Made by a program: the position numbers and the translations under genes. The notes under the pieces were generated by a model, which saw only the letters and a list, made by a program, of their open reading frames with translations, was not told the origin of the DNA and ran no database searches. A stretch of DNA of 31,686 nt from positions 1-31,686 of the IMG/VR virus record IMGVR_UViG_3300006754_000075. One strand, given 5' to 3'. Shown here piece after piece: positions 22,944 to 31,686 of this stretch (position 1 is the stretch's first letter; every line of letters begins with the position of its first letter). Source of the stretch: a virus.

Positions 22944-23273
22944 ATGACAGAAACAGACCTACTAAGAGATCGGATTGCATCTGTATCTCAAAAAATCATA
23001 CGCCTATGGGGCGAGCCTGCGCAACTTGGGATGATGGTTGAGGAGTGCGGCGAATTGATTGTCGCAATACACCATTACTCGCGCGGTAAATGCTCCAAGG
23101 GCGATGTGCTATCAGAGATCGCCGACGTTATGATCGTCGCGGGGCAACTATCAGAAACATTCGGAGAAGATGGCGAGGTTGAGGCGCTTATCGCGCAGAA
23201 ATTGAACAGGCTAGATCATAGAATTAAACATTCAGACGGGGCAGAACAATGGGCGCATATAAAGACTTCCTAG
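22944..23273 (+). CDS. MazG-like nucleotide pyrophosphohydrolase
   Basis: 109 aa all-alpha NTP-PPase. It hydrolyses NTP or dNTP to the monophosphate and pyrophosphate, cleaning the nucleotide pool or lowering (p)ppGpp-type signals during infection. The metal-binding pattern is clear: EECGE (33-37) and E58-x-x-D61 (SEIADVM), in the context GMMVEECGELIVAI and ADVMIVAGQLSETFG. The leader is GAGGGCAGACGATG. It overlaps the following helicase gene by 25 bp. Confidence 0.8.
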   Translation: MTETDLLRDRIASVSQKIIRLWGEPAQLGMMVEECGELIVAIHHYSRGKCSKGDVLSEIADVMIVAGQLSETFGEDGEVEALIAQKLNRLDHRIKHSDGAEQWAHIKTS

Positions 23274-25432
23274 ACAGAAAAGCAATCGCAGCGCCAGCGC
23301 GCGGGATCACAAGGATCGAGGGGCTATCTTCTGAGCTATTCGATTTCCAGAAGAGGATTGTAGACTGGGCACTATCTAAGGGCCGCGCCGCTATATTTGC
23401 GGACTGCGGACTCGGCAAAACATTCATGCAACTAGAATGGGCGCGACATGTGCCTGGAGACGTCCTAATCCTGACACCGTTAGCAGTTGCGCAGCAGACA
23501 GCATCGGAGGCTCGGCGGTTTGGAATAAGCGCAGCCGTTAGTCGGGACGGTAAGAAGGCGGCGCCGATTACGATTACGAATTACCAACAGCTTCACAAAT
23601 TCGACCTTTCAGAATATAGCGGGATCGTATTGGACGAGAGCAGCATTCTGAAGAGTTACGACGGAAAGACCAGAACAGCGATAATAGAGGCGTCTTTGGC
23701 GCTTCCTTTTCGGCTTGCATGTACCGCAACCCCAGCCCCAAACGATCACATGGAGCTTGGAAACCATGCGGAGTTTCTTGGAGCGATGAGCCGCGCGGAA
23801 ATGCTCGCAACATTCTTTGTTCACGATGGCGGCGAGACTTCAAAATGGAGGCTAAAGGGACATGCCGAGGATGACTTCTGGAAATGGGTATCAACGTGGG
23901 GGGTCGCGATAAAGACGCCAGCCGATCTTGGATTTCCTGCGCAAGGCTTCGACTTGCCAGAATGTAATATCATCGAGCATATCGCGGAGAGCTCTTTTGA
24001 ACAGGATGGCGTGCTTTTCCCGACAGCCCTATCCTTGACGGATCTCCGAGCGGCGAGAAAAGCCAGCCTTGAGAGCCGCGCTCAGATAATATCTGACCTT
24101 GTAAATGACAGCGATGAACAATGGCTGGTTTGGTGCGATCTGAATGCCGAGGGCGACGCGCTATCCACGTTCATCCATGGCGCAGTACAGGTGAGCGGGA
24201 GCGATAAGGACGACGTGAAGGCAGAGAGGATGATGGCGTTTTCACGTGGAGAGATCCGCGTTCTAGTTACGAAGCCACAGATCGCCGGATTTGGAATGAA
24301 CTGGCAGAACTGCCACAACATGGCATTTGCTGGGCTCACTCATTCATATGAGAGATTCTATCAGGCCGTTCGCAGGTGTTGGCGCTTCGGGCAGGATAGA
24401 TCGGTAAATGTGCATATTGCGCTTTCTGAACAAGAGTTACCTGTATTGGCGAGCATTCGCAGAAAGGAAAGAGACGCGGAGATCATGGCGTCATCAATGG
24501 TTGAATATATGTGCTCCATGGATGATTGGGGCGGACTATCAAGAACAAAGGAAACTTACATGGAAGATAGAGAGATCGGACAAAATTGGGCGATGTATAA
24601 CGGAGATTGCGTTGAGGGCGTATCAAAGATGGATGATGATTCTGTTCATTATACCGTCTTCTCTCCTCCATTCTCATCGCTATACACCTACTCAGCGAGC
24701 ACCAGAGACATGGGGAATTGCAGAAATCACGCGGAATTCTTCGAGCAGTTTGGGTTTCTGGTTTCGGAGTTGCTTCGAGTTACAATGCCTGGCCGCCTGT
24801 TGTCTTTTCACTGCATGAACATACCCACGTCGAAGGCGAAGGACGGTGTAATAGGTCTATCCGATTTTCGAGGGGATCTCATTCGCGAGTTCATGGAGGC
24901 TGGGTGGATATATCATTCTGAGGTTTGCATCTGGAAAGATCCCGTAACTCAAATGCAAAGAACAAAGGCGCTCGGCTTACTCCACAAACAGATAAAAAAA
25001 GACTCTTGCATGAATCGCCAGGGGCTCGCTGATTACCTCGTCACAATGAGAAAGCCAGGAGACAACCCCGAGCGAGTTGAGCACACAAACGAGACATTCC
25101 CAGTAGGGCTTTGGCAGCGGTACGCCTCGCCTGTATGGGATGACATAAACCCAAGCAACACTCTACAATTCAGGTCTGCCAGAAGTGAAAAGGACGAGCG
25201 CCACATATGCCCGCTACAACTCCAGGTTATACGGAGAGCCCTAAAACTCTGGAGCAACCCCGGCGATCTGGTTCTATCTCCATTCGCAGGGATAGGGTCT
25301 GAGGGTTATGTTGCGCTTGAAGAGGGCCGCCAGTTTGTGGGCTTCGAGTTGAAGCGTGAATATTACGATCAAGCGTGCAGAAACCTTGCAGAGGCAGAGT
25401 CTGAAGATATGCAAGATGATTTGTTCGCATAG
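23249..25432 (+). CDS. SF2 helicase fused to DNA amino-methyltransferase
   Basis: 727 aa. N-terminal half: SNF2/DEAH-type translocase with Walker A GLGKT (54-58), Walker B LDESS (128-132; D129, E130), motif III-like TATP (159-162) and motif VI QAVRRCWRFGQDR (372-384). C-terminal part (about 440-727): Rossmann methyltransferase with motif IV SPPF (472-475) and, further on, motif I SPFAGIGSEG (677-686), so a motif IV - I order as in the beta class. SPPF favours N4-cytosine or N6-adenine transfer. No nuclease domain is visible. It probably modifies phage DNA against restriction, with the translocase assisting; a role in replication is possible. Confidence 0.85.
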   Translation: MGAYKDFLDRKAIAAPARGITRIEGLSSELFDFQKRIVDWALSKGRAAIFADCGLGKTFMQLEWARHVPGDVLILTPLAVAQQTASEARRFGISAAVSRDGKKAAPITITNYQQLHKFDLSEYSGIVLDESSILKSYDGKTRTAIIEASLALPFRLACTATPAPNDHMELGNHAEFLGAMSRAEMLATFFVHDGGETSKWRLKGHAEDDFWKWVSTWGVAIKTPADLGFPAQGFDLPECNIIEHIAESSFEQDGVLFPTALSLTDLRAARKASLESRAQIISDLVNDSDEQWLVWCDLNAEGDALSTFIHGAVQVSGSDKDDVKAERMMAFSRGEIRVLVTKPQIAGFGMNWQNCHNMAFAGLTHSYERFYQAVRRCWRFGQDRSVNVHIALSEQELPVLASIRRKERDAEIMASSMVEYMCSMDDWGGLSRTKETYMEDREIGQNWAMYNGDCVEGVSKMDDDSVHYTVFSPPFSSLYTYSASTRDMGNCRNHAEFFEQFGFLVSELLRVTMPGRLLSFHCMNIPTSKAKDGVIGLSDFRGDLIREFMEAGWIYHSEVCIWKDPVTQMQRTKALGLLHKQIKKDSCMNRQGLADYLVTMRKPGDNPERVEHTNETFPVGLWQRYASPVWDDINPSNTLQFRSARSEKDERHICPLQLQVIRRALKLWSNPGDLVLSPFAGIGSEGYVALEEGRQFVGFELKREYYDQACRNLAEAESEDMQDDLFA

Positions 25433-27046: not shown

Positions 27047-27920
27047 AATTGTGAAATACCTACAAGGCAAACAGACGGCAATTGCAGCGATGGCGAAGCG
27101 GCTAACCGCGCGCCAGATGATCCAGGCGACCTCAATCGCCATCCACCAAAACGCGGCGCTGGCTAAATGCTCGAAGGAGTCTATATACGAGGCCGTGCTA
27201 CAAGCGGCGCGGATGGGGCTGGATTGCTCGGGGTTGCACGGTCATGGCTATCTTGTCCCATACGGGCGTAAGTGTACCTTTGTGCCAGGCTGGCGCGGGC
27301 TTATATCAATCGCCATAAGGTCAGGAACGGCGAAGACGATCAAGGCAAACGTGGTATTCAAAAACGATGCCTTTGACTGGGACGAAGGGCTAACCCCAAA
27401 CCTTATTCACAAGCCAAAGATTGACGGGCCGCGCGGGGAGCTGATTTGCGCTTACGCCATCGCGTACTTTGAAAGCGCCGATCCTCAGTTCGAGGTTATG
27501 ACCCGCGAGGACATCGACAAGATCGCGAAGGATAGCCGGTCAGACTCATGGCGCAACCACTTCGCGGCGATGGCTCGCAAGTCTGCAGTTCGTCGCCTGT
27601 GCTCGATGTTGCCGCGCTCGCTTGAGCTTGATGACGCCTTAGACCTGGAGATCGCTGGTGAGGTCGGGCGGTCACCTTCTGAGCTTCTCAGGATTGAAGA
27701 GCCCGAGGCGTTGACGGCTAACCCGGTCAACACCGTTGACGACGTGAAGAAGAAGATCAGGAAGAAACGCGCGCCTAAGAAAAAGAAATTCGAGATCACA
27801 GAAGAGCCCCCAGCGGCGGAGCCTGATGCTAATCTTGGAGACGTGATCGCGCAAAACAACGCGGCGCTAATCGAGATGATTCCAGAAGATCCATTCACTG
27901 AAGATGACGTGCCATTCTAA
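27039..27920 (+). CDS. recT: RecT single-strand annealing protein with SSB-like C-terminal tip
   Basis: 293 aa. It anneals complementary ssDNA produced by the exonuclease. RecT hallmarks: 'LQAARMGLDCSGLHGHGYLVPYG', 'FVPGWRGLISIAIRSG' and 'SWRNHFAAMARKSAVRRL' (about 54-186). Residues 237-250 form a Lys/Arg-rich linker, followed by an acidic, Pro-rich tail ending EDPFTEDDVPF (283-293), which closely matches the acidic tip of bacterial SSB (DDDIPF type). No separate SSB gene is visible in the window. The tail may recruit the SSB-binding partners of the host. Confidence 0.9.
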   Translation: MSEIVKYLQGKQTAIAAMAKRLTARQMIQATSIAIHQNAALAKCSKESIYEAVLQAARMGLDCSGLHGHGYLVPYGRKCTFVPGWRGLISIAIRSGTAKTIKANVVFKNDAFDWDEGLTPNLIHKPKIDGPRGELICAYAIAYFESADPQFEVMTREDIDKIAKDSRSDSWRNHFAAMARKSAVRRLCSMLPRSLELDDALDLEIAGEVGRSPSELLRIEEPEALTANPVNTVDDVKKKIRKKRAPKKKKFEITEEPPAAEPDANLGDVIAQNNAALIEMIPEDPFTEDDVPF

Positions 27921-28542: not shown

Positions 28543-28937
28543 GCGCTCTATTATGCTCCCTGGTGATGCTTCTCCCTGTTCGCGGGGGTTACGATCAAGC
28601 CTTCGCGGTTTGTGCCGATATAGGCACCAGGGCAGAGGCTCAGGGGTTAGATCCCGCTGTGCTGATTGCAGTAGGTTATTATGAGAGTAGGTTTGATCCC
28701 GGTGCGGTTTCACATTGTGGGGCTGTGGGCGCGCTCCAGGCCATCCCGCGCTTCTGGCCGGGCGATCCCATTGACGCGGGGATCCGCGCCTTCACGCATT
28801 ACACCAGGAAAGCCCGCGATCTTCGGTTGGGCCTCGCTATGTATAACGCAGGAAAAAGGCCAGGCCCGCGCGCGTTTCGTTACGCTGATCGCGTTTTAGC
28901 GTTGGCCGAACGTCTTCGCATGTGGGGCGGGGGTTGA
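28539..28937 (+). CDS. Lytic transglycosylase (SLT type)
   Basis: 132 aa from ATG 28539 (ATGA overlap; an ATG at 28521 adds six residues). A short hydrophobic N-terminus may be a signal peptide. The SLT motifs are clear: YYESRFDPGA with catalytic Glu (E49), GAVGALQAIP (61-70) and MYNAGK (101-106). It cuts the glycan strand of peptidoglycan and may act in lysis or during DNA entry. Confidence 0.85.
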   Translation: MSALLCSLVMLLPVRGGYDQAFAVCADIGTRAEAQGLDPAVLIAVGYYESRFDPGAVSHCGAVGALQAIPRFWPGDPIDAGIRAFTHYTRKARDLRLGLAMYNAGKRPGPRAFRYADRVLALAERLRMWGGG

Positions 28938-28964
28938 CGGTGACAATATTTAAAGGCTTATTTT
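28934..28964 (+). promoter_or_regulatory. Putative promoter upstream of the iterons
   Basis: -35 TTGACG (28934-28939) with an AT-rich downstream region. Possible -10 elements are TATTTT (28959-28964, 19-bp spacing) or TTATTT (18 bp). The elements are suboptimal, but the site is the only long gap in this half of the genome and leads into the iteron region. Confidence 0.4.
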
Positions 28965-28970
28965 AGCTAT

Positions 28971-29045
28971 CATGTTAACAAACTAACAAAATTAACATGT
29001 TAACAAACTAACAAAATTAACATGTTAACAAACTAGCAAACTAAC
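28971..29045 (+). repeat. Iteron-like direct repeats (period 25), replication origin region
   Basis: Two identical 25-bp units (28971-28995, 28996-29020) beginning CATGTTAACAAACTAACAAA, plus a third diverged unit (29021-29045). Each unit carries GTTAAC, and at the unit junctions TTAACATGTTAA is a perfect 12-bp palindrome (28992-29003, 29017-29028). AT-rich in a GC-rich genome. Likely binding sites for the initiator whose start lies at 29063. Confidence 0.8.
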
Positions 29046-29062
29046 AAAGGCAAAAACAGACG

Positions 29063-29776
29063 ATGAAGAAGACGATAGCAGCGCGGGTTGACGCGGATCT
29101 CTGGGGCGCTTTCAAGCTGGAGGCCATAAGGCAGGGATCAAGCGTGCAGGCTTTCTTAGCGGACGCTCTCGAAGAGAAGATCGCGAGCGCCGGAAATAAG
29201 CGCAAAAATAAGAAAAGCGAGCCAATAAACAAGAAACCCGAAAACCCGGAATCCTCGCGCGCGCCCGTTAACACAATTAACAAACATTTTAATTCAACAG
29301 TAATTAACAAAACAATTAACAAATTAACACATAACAACAACAAGGTGGGTTTAGTGGCTGAGAAGCCTAAAAACGCCTATCTAAGCGTGCAAGCGGCTTA
29401 TAATAGCATCACAGAAAACGAGAGCAGGGCTGACCACCTTCCCGGCTTCAAGCTATGTAAACGCATCGGCAAAAACCGCAAGACCGGCATTGATCGCCTG
29501 CTCAAAGAGCTAGCTGGCACAGGCATTACACCTACGGACTATTTCTCTTTATGCTGCCTCAACCGTCATTGGCGAGGCGACAACGACCGAAGATGGCGCG
29601 CTGATTTGGAATTCCTAACCAGAGATGAAAATATATCCAAGGCGCTAGAGCTTGAACAAACCGACAACGAAGCAAACAAACCGATCACCTCGGCAGACTT
29701 TTTCCCAGATGAACCAACCATAATAGACGTTACAACAGACCAAAGGGGGCAACCTTGGCAACACATAAAGCACTAA
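29063..29776 (+). CDS. Replication initiator (ribbon-helix-helix plus lambda-O-like C-terminus)
   Basis: 237 aa. Residues 1-43 look like a ribbon-helix-helix DNA-binding domain (KKTIAARVDADLWGAFKLEA...SSVQAFLADALEEKIA). Residues 44-95 form an Asn/Lys linker; its part 69-92 is encoded by iteron-like DNA (see repeat at 29267). Residues 130-196 contain 'W..RADLEFLTRDENISKALE', typical of the C-terminal part of phage replication initiators and replisome organisers. It is followed by a helicase-loader-like gene. A start at 29063 has GGCAAAAACAGACG upstream. Confidence 0.7.
   Translation: MKKTIAARVDADLWGAFKLEAIRQGSSVQAFLADALEEKIASAGNKRKNKKSEPINKKPENPESSRAPVNTINKHFNSTVINKTINKLTHNNNKVGLVAEKPKNAYLSVQAAYNSITENESRADHLPGFKLCKRIGKNRKTGIDRLLKELAGTGITPTDYFSLCCLNRHWRGDNDRRWRADLEFLTRDENISKALELEQTDNEANKPITSADFFPDEPTIIDVTTDQRGQPWQHIKH
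29267..29329 (+). repeat. Iteron-like repeats inside the initiator gene (candidate origin core)
   Basis: GTTAAC (29267-29272) and four copies of AATTAACA (starting 29275, 29302, 29314, 29322) inside the initiator coding sequence, the same octamer as in the upstream units (28990, 29015). This AT-rich stretch would serve as an origin with a duplex-unwinding character and at the same time encode the linker of the protein, similar in logic to lambda ori inside gene O. Confidence 0.7.
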
Positions 29777-30327
29777 AAAACGGACTTCAGGCGCTACTCG
29801 ACAATGGCCACAGAATACCAGAAGGGACGACCGCTCAACGCATTGGCAAACATTGGGAAGCGTACCTTGAGCCCTTCACAGATGAAGAGATTGAGACGGC
29901 GATCCACAAGGTGATACTAACCCGGCTGACCTCGGCATGGCCGCCCATCGCGGTTATTGTCTCGAGCGTTCCACGGGTGGAGAATAAAAAGCGGCTTGAC
30001 TCCCTCGAAGACGCGGACGAGGTATTTGGGGAGGTGCTCGATCTTGTGGCCGCTCGGGGCTCGTATAGCCCGCCAACAGATCTCGAATACGACATGGATC
30101 CGATCCGCTCCAGGGCCATCGCTTCAGGCGTCAGGGCTGCGGGTGGCTGGAAGTCTCTTTGTCGGGGCACTGAGCGCGAGCTAGCAAGCCAGCGCGCATC
30201 ATTCCGCGCAGCGTTCAAGAGCAACAGCGCCAAAGCAAAGATCAACGGGCAATGGGATCCTTCTCGCGCATTGTCGGCAGGCGTTGATATCTCGGGGATC
30301 CTCGAACACATGGAGATCGGCAATTGA
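29755..30327 (+). CDS. Replicative helicase loader-like protein (G39P/P-like)
   Basis: 190 aa from a TTG that overlaps the initiator end by 22 bp and has GGGGGCA upstream. The N-terminal part (about 25-75: HWEAYLEPFTDEEIETAIHKVIL...SAWPPIAVIV) fits the G39P-like loader family; the middle (about 88-155: FGEVLDLVAARGSYSPP...RAAGGWKSLCRGTERELASQRASFRAAF) also matches the extended phage form. It would bring the host DnaB-type helicase to the initiator. No helicase or primase gene of its own is visible in the window. Confidence 0.7.
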   Translation: MATHKALKNGLQALLDNGHRIPEGTTAQRIGKHWEAYLEPFTDEEIETAIHKVILTRLTSAWPPIAVIVSSVPRVENKKRLDSLEDADEVFGEVLDLVAARGSYSPPTDLEYDMDPIRSRAIASGVRAAGGWKSLCRGTERELASQRASFRAAFKSNSAKAKINGQWDPSRALSAGVDISGILEHMEIGN

Positions 30328-30767
30328 ACTTCAGCGCATCGATAACGATACCAATCCCGCCACAACCGAAGAGGCGCGTTAGAGCCGCTGTAATGAGCGG
30401 AAAGGTTAGAACCTACCAAGACCCCAAGACGAAGCGCTACGAGCAATCCTGCGCTATTTACTTGCGCCAGGGCGCACCTTTAAGGCCGGTCGATGGTCCC
30501 GTTGCGCTTGATATTCGGTTTTTTCACGATAGGCCGAAGAGGCTACAGCAAAAGACCCACAAAGGGATCCCGGTATCTGATCACCCTATCCGCAAGGCAA
30601 CCAGGCCAGACCTGGACAACTTGTGCAAAGCCATCGCCGATAGCCTACAGATCGCGGGATTCTATCGCGATGACGGGCAGCTCGTCAGGCTTACCGCGTT
30701 TGACTATTACGTTGAGCGCGGAGGTGAAGCCAGGACGCATGTTATTTTTTCCGAATTGGGGGCGTAG
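30324..30767 (+). CDS. rusA: RusA-type Holliday junction resolvase
   Basis: 147 aa starting at a TTG in a TTGA overlap with the loader gene. It resolves four-way junctions made during recombination-dependent replication, helping give packageable DNA. The RusA catalytic pattern is complete: D96 and D98 (RPDLDNLCK), K102 and D117 (FYRDDGQL) match RusA D70, D72, K76 and D91, including the 21-residue spacing. N-terminal strand region IPIPPQPKRRVRA is typical too. Confidence 0.9.
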   Translation: MNFSASITIPIPPQPKRRVRAAVMSGKVRTYQDPKTKRYEQSCAIYLRQGAPLRPVDGPVALDIRFFHDRPKRLQQKTHKGIPVSDHPIRKATRPDLDNLCKAIADSLQIAGFYRDDGQLVRLTAFDYYVERGGEARTHVIFSELGA

Positions 30768-31586: not shown

Positions 31587-31686
31587 TGTGCTCGCTTTAT
31601 GGTTTAGCACAATTACCTAATGATTGTGGGCGGTTACCCCCCCCACCCCTAAAGGGGGCGGAGCAGAAGAACGTCGCCCAAGACAC
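31587..31686 (+). other. Terminal non-coding region with C-run and small hairpin
   Basis: 100 bp without a gene. It contains a run of eight C (31637-31644), then a small hairpin CCCCT - AA - AGGGG (31646-31657). If the genome is circular or concatemeric, this joins the first bases of the window, which contain TTGACA (2-7). No cos or pac site can be recognised by eye. Confidence 0.4.

Follow-up and report, generated by a model that had tools for sequence, protein, structure and literature searches.

In bacteriophage lambda, the origin of replication (ori-lambda) lies within the initiator gene O, and its iterons are palindromic and longer than the units considered here. The lambda origin melts in its AT-rich part (PMC7466680). 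The origin of the RepA_N plasmid pSK41 is likewise situated inside its initiator gene, where the origin DNA encodes a linker of the Rep protein (PMC5703833). Tandem arrays of short sites are the targets of ribbon-helix-helix (RHH) proteins, among which omega and ParG occupy such arrays in centromeres as well as in promoters (PMC9499535, PMC7308502). Omega recognises 7 bp repeats in direct and inverted order (PMC9499535), ParG arrays consist of tetramer boxes with AT-rich spacers (PMC7308502), and the target of MetJ is a tandemly repeated 8 bp palindrome (title cited in PMC3274233).

The DNA analysed here (the window), 31,686 bp long, makes up an entire IMG/VR virus record, classified as linear and possibly a fragment. 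Its principal genes are carried on the plus strand. Tailed-phage genes for the large terminase and the portal protein are located at the left end, and the right-hand part is a recombination and replication block with a helicase-methylase fusion, a RecE-like exonuclease, RecT, two lysis-type genes, the initiator and RusA. In the fusion, a SNF2-type helicase part and an N6/N4 DNA methylase domain share a single ORF (23249-25432). Comparisons with annotated phages at the DNA level and with plasmids at the protein level found no similarity. The locus around 29063-29776 is probably a cassette for replication initiation in a small tailed phage, and the explanation that we favour with reasonable confidence is a lambda-type in-gene origin, whose RHH initiator would also bind an upstream autoregulatory or origin array. 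The features of the locus are as follows (window coordinates).

28958..29017, no strand: AT-rich island 1, 20% GC, the second-lowest 60 bp segment of the contig; coincides with the upstream array
28968..29050, plus strand: upstream array of degenerate YTARCANN units, putative operator or iterons of the RHH initiator (TRF periods 8 and 25; homologous array in contig L003)
29063..29776, plus strand: initiator gene, 237 aa, with an RHH-like N-terminus, a linker and a lambda-O-like C-terminal domain (PHROG 345)
29063..29191, plus strand: predicted RHH-like DNA-binding domain, codons 1-43 (profile of four N-termini against the PDB; AF2 and Foldseek)
29168..29314, plus strand: stretch encoding linker codons 36-84, synonymously more conserved against L003 than expected
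29268..29327, no strand: AT-rich island 2, candidate DNA-unwinding element, 16.7% GC, the lowest 60 bp segment of the contig; coincides with the in-gene block
29268..29329, plus strand: in-gene repeat block with five TTAACA, putative initiator-binding part of the origin
29375..29665, plus strand: O-like C-terminal domain, about codons 105-201, motif NRHWRGDNDRRWRADLEFLTR (profile and sequence matches)
29755..30327, plus strand: next gene, 190 aa, starting with TTG within the end of the initiator gene; its position alone makes it a candidate helicase loader (synteny)
30324..30767, plus strand: RusA Holliday-junction resolvase (Pfam RusA, E 2e-23), completing the replication cassette

Scans of viral contigs retrieved an identical sequence (L002) and then L003, L010 and L011, whose proteins share the RHH-O architecture, which gives a family of four distinct members (the window, L003, L010 and L011). 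The closest relative is L003, with 67% protein identity. Further viral-contig scans with a two-member alignment, two next-gene queries, an O-core alignment and the L010/L011 pair yielded no additional RHH-O proteins. The initial annotation had described the initiator as an RHH-type N-terminus joined to a lambda-O-like C-terminus. The second part of this description holds: residues 44-203 match PHROG 345 ('replication initiation O-like') with an E-value of 1.1e-10, and the C-termini of the other three members match it as well (L003, 6e-12; L010, 3e-10; L011, 1e-9). The match starts at profile position 131 of 297, and the O head, i.e., the first 130 positions, is unmatched in the initiator. The closest annotated relatives of the C-terminal domain are replication protein O of Pseudomonas phages HU1, BUCT566, PSA04 and Haboob. 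A Pseudomonas phage tblastn alignment over residues 5-196 was rejected in its N-terminal part, which looks spurious, the N-terminus of BUCT566 being longer and different.

For the RHH part of the description, the matches are weak and concordant. Residues 1-43 produced sub-threshold matches to several RHH families, below the curated cut-offs. A profile of the four N-termini compared with the PDB, with matches considered up to E 5, retrieved the omega repressor (2bnw, 0.025; 1irq, 0.088) and AvtR (1.0), all of which are RHH proteins, and nothing else. The AF2 model of the N-terminal 45 residues (pLDDT 89) is a monomer of two helices with no beta strand, and Foldseek matched it mainly to RHH proteins (Arc, AvtR, CopG, FitA, AtaR and MatP; best E 1.4). 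The whole-protein AF2 model was of low confidence (pLDDT 55), so its viral fold matches were excluded from the evidence. The agreement of many weak matches makes an RHH domain in residues 1-43 likely, if not proven. The protein looks like a lambda-O-type initiator in which an RHH head takes the place of the usual DNA-binding head. We know of no RHH-headed phage initiator, and a search limited to one library of open-access papers found none. The N-terminus of protein P0007 of L010 (L010:560-1354) also resembles the slr0373 blue-light stress family of NCBIfam; the match (E 2.3e-5) falls far short of the curated cut-off, and this family may be where the RHH-like head came from.

The window contains six copies of the octamer AATTAACA, always on the plus strand (28990, 29015, 29275, 29302, 29314 and 29322), which confirms the copies listed in the initial annotation. 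The computed expectation is 0.75 copies in 31.7 kb, and six or more were reached in none of 100 shuffles. The TTAACA hexamer is similarly concentrated, with 13 of the window's 18 copies within 28973-29329. The upstream array, situated in the gap that separates the preceding gene from the initiator's start codon, is the top-scoring tandem array of the contig (2.8 copies of a 25 bp unit at 28971-29040, score 133), and the second-best score, 65, is this array again, read at period 8. The repetition previously described as three GTTAAC-bearing 25 bp units is real, but is better parsed as a degenerate 8 bp tandem, for which TRF gives 8.9 copies of period 8 (28976-29048) and the 8 bp autocorrelation gives z = 6.0 against shuffles. 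The 25 bp unit itself reads TTAACATG-TTAACAAA-CTAACAAA-A, i.e., three degenerate 8 bp units YTARCANN. The hexamers start at 28975, 28983, 28992, 29000, 29008, 29017, 29025, 29033 and 29041, and the 25 bp period arises because one of every three 8 bp steps is lengthened to 9 bp. The palindrome reported at the unit junctions, TTAACATGTTAA, is present exactly at 28992 and 29017; it arises there from a hexamer standing opposite its own inverse.

A homologous position in L003, the intergenic region ahead of the initiator gene, harbours a perfect 8 bp array of 6.8 copies of CTAGCATT (L003:4315-4368). Its unit (CTAGCA) differs from the TTAACA type of the window, yet fits YTARCA. Arrays of this kind are compatible with a centromere-like or purely regulatory RHH site, the protein being no initiator, as omega and ParG bind tandem arrays in both settings (PMC9499535, PMC7308502). 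We consider this highly improbable: profile searches class the C-terminus of each of the four members as O-like, the gene is embedded in a cassette with RecE, RecT and RusA, and no ParA-like gene was found among the scanned ORFs, which represent part of the window's ORFs.

Inside the initiator gene, TTAACA occurs five times (29268, 29277, 29304, 29316 and 29324; codons 69-89), four times within AATTAACA. These four octamers occupy codons 71-89 of the ORF, and the earlier assignment of the downstream copies to the linker-coding part of the initiator gene is correct. Three of them are in frame with one another and read INK; the fourth, at 29322, falls in another frame and is therefore not expected from an amino-acid repeat. 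When the gene was resampled synonymously for the same protein, at least four octamers appeared in 0 of 20,000 draws with phage codon usage and in 3 of 20,000 with the gene's own codon usage; permutation of the linker codons reached this number in 0 of 20,000. According to these results, the in-gene repeats are no by-product of protein sequence or codon use.

Comparison with L003 adds a second line of evidence. In codons 36-84, a segment delimited post hoc after the conservation profile had been viewed, 33 of 38 codons at conserved residues are identical, against 23.2 expected from the other genes shared by the pair (P 0.0005). The corresponding value for codons 85-237 is 49 of 96, below the expected 58.4, and the repeat-bearing codons 69-84 taken alone show no significant excess (P 0.16). 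The excess synonymous conservation of the linker codons is support for, not proof of, a constraint at the DNA level. Neutral origin of the repeats, with a slippage-made tandem upstream and an Asn/Lys-rich disordered linker in the gene, seems unlikely to us. The perfect L003 array could be a recent expansion, and the shared INK frame of three of the four in-gene octamers also fits such an origin; the codon-resampling tests and the linker conservation do not. Moreover, the arrays of the window and L003 are found at the same place with different units and a common YTARCA consensus, and both clusters of the window coincide with AT minima.

The mean GC-content is 53%, as against 16.7% and 20% in the two islands, and island 2 overlaps the in-gene repeats rather than lying beside them. 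The sign change of GC skew that had been predicted for this site was not observed. Cumulative skew rises up to about 28.9 kb, flattens until about 30.5 kb and reaches its maximum at 31633 without ever reversing, although this test is weak because the principal genes all lie on one strand. A single exact DnaA box, TTATNCACA, was found in the window, at 27403, away from the repeats. The promoter scan gave a single minus-strand match, on par with shuffles.

The product of the next gene had been proposed to be a G39P-like helicase loader. Profile searches of Pfam, PHROG, NCBIfam and the PDB returned no significant family match for it, G39P included, and the G39P identity was ruled unsupported on these grounds, very divergent homology being possible. 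The gene lies between the initiator and RusA in L010 and L011, where this gene order is kept, and is adjacent in L003.

The two more distant members differ from the window at the DNA level. The upstream 8 bp array is absent in L010 and L011, and their linker-coding DNA features paired G-runs exactly 12 bp apart (L010:726-783 and L011:925-943), which could be another initiator-binding motif. Similar G-runs are seen ahead of the neighbouring Dam methylase gene (L010:6-20 and L011:11-29). The linker residues track the DNA motif, with Asn/Lys accompanying TTAACA and Gly accompanying GGGGG. With four distinct members in the family, a joint variation of head, repeats and linker is suggestive only.

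The absence of the upstream array from L010 and L011, with linker motifs kept, bears on how the two clusters share their work. The upstream array might be only an autoregulatory RHH operator, with the origin confined to the in-gene block, or, in reverse, it might be the whole origin and the in-gene block minor. Such a division of roles has a chance that we put a little under one half. The 8 bp periodicity is strong upstream (z 6.0 in the window and 9.5 in L003) and weak in the gene (z 1.4 in the window; none clear in L003, whose in-gene block contains two TTAACA), and the upstream CTAGCA of L003 differs from its in-gene TTAACA. On the other hand, the same octamer is present in both clusters of the window, and both are AT minima of the contig.

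Other O-like proteins, whose N-terminal type was judged by reading the sequences, have longer N-termini that do not look like RHH, save a few that are truncated at contig ends or very short. A simple k-mer test revealed short repeats in the linker DNA of O-like genes without the RHH head in L005, L013, L015 and L030, and none in several other O-like genes. By this test, in-gene repeats are a recurring, not universal, trait of O-type genes. The repeats are AACGGACGT in L015:2314-3117, ACCAGCA in L013:2467-3234 and TTCTTCG in L005:1913-2626. In the O-like initiator L030:2179-3126, the linker is encoded by some six to seven copies of a 15 bp repeat of the AAGCCTAA type, which translates into repeated PNQEK; this is another candidate in-gene origin.

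In the favoured explanation, a lambda-type in-gene origin with an additional upstream array, RHH dimers would bind the 8 bp-spaced YTARCA sites cooperatively, and initiator dimers would coat both arrays. The upstream cluster (28968-29050) probably serves autoregulation and supplies extra origin sites; binding there, ahead of the start codon, would limit the initiator's own expression. For the in-gene cluster (29268-29329) the likely role, by comparison with ori-lambda in gene O, is that of origin core and melting site; it may open like the AT-rich segment of the lambda origin (PMC7466680). Bringing in the host replicative helicase would then probably fall, on the model of lambda O and P, to the C-terminal domain together with the product of the next gene. 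Recruitment from the host is proposed because no phage DnaB-type helicase was found among the scanned ORFs, a part of the window's ORFs.

A bolder version, which we hold tentatively as somewhat closer to doubtful than to probable, is that an RHH repressor-type domain replaced the O head, with a single protein now acting as repressor at its own promoter and triggering the origin through MetJ-like 8 bp boxes. Since the binding sites are partly written into linker codons, head, sites and linker amino acids would evolve as one unit. If this is true, TTAACA sites would result in the Asn/Lys linkers of the window and G-runs in the Gly-containing linkers of L010 and L011, the linker codons would record head specificity, and copy control and initiation would be coupled in one protein. 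The RHH head would also widen the range of initiators to a domain familiar chiefly as part of repressors, antitoxins and partition proteins. In their build, phage initiators appear modular, with a common O-like C-terminus and varied N-terminal heads.

Among the described systems, lambda O and ori-lambda resemble the locus in the O-like C-terminal domain, in repeats within the linker-coding DNA between the DNA-binding and C-terminal domains, in the AT-rich stretch at the repeats and in the next gene, which takes the position of P. Unlike lambda, the window has units of the 8 bp type instead of longer palindromic iterons, a second array upstream of the initiator gene and a next gene without detectable similarity to P, and its N-terminus looks like RHH, whereas that of O proteins is longer and different. 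Short repeats also occur in the linker DNA of phage HU1, but the N-termini of HU1 and BUCT566 are longer and not RHH-like. As in pSK41 Rep, the linker is encoded by putative origin DNA; however, Rep belongs to a plasmid, not a phage, and has a RepA_N DNA-binding domain and another C-terminus. The predicted RHH-like domain and the contiguous 7-8 bp repeats are shared with RHH array binders (MetJ with its met boxes, omega/ParB of pSM19035 and ParG), and the units of the window array are in direct and inverted orientations, as in omega arrays. Tandem short operator-type repeats near the protein's own gene are present in the window and L003, but not in L010 and L011. MetJ, omega and ParG, in contrast to the window protein, are repressors or partition proteins without an O-like C-terminal domain. 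What is unusual in the locus, as read from its sequence, is the predicted RHH head together with the upstream 8 bp RHH-style array.
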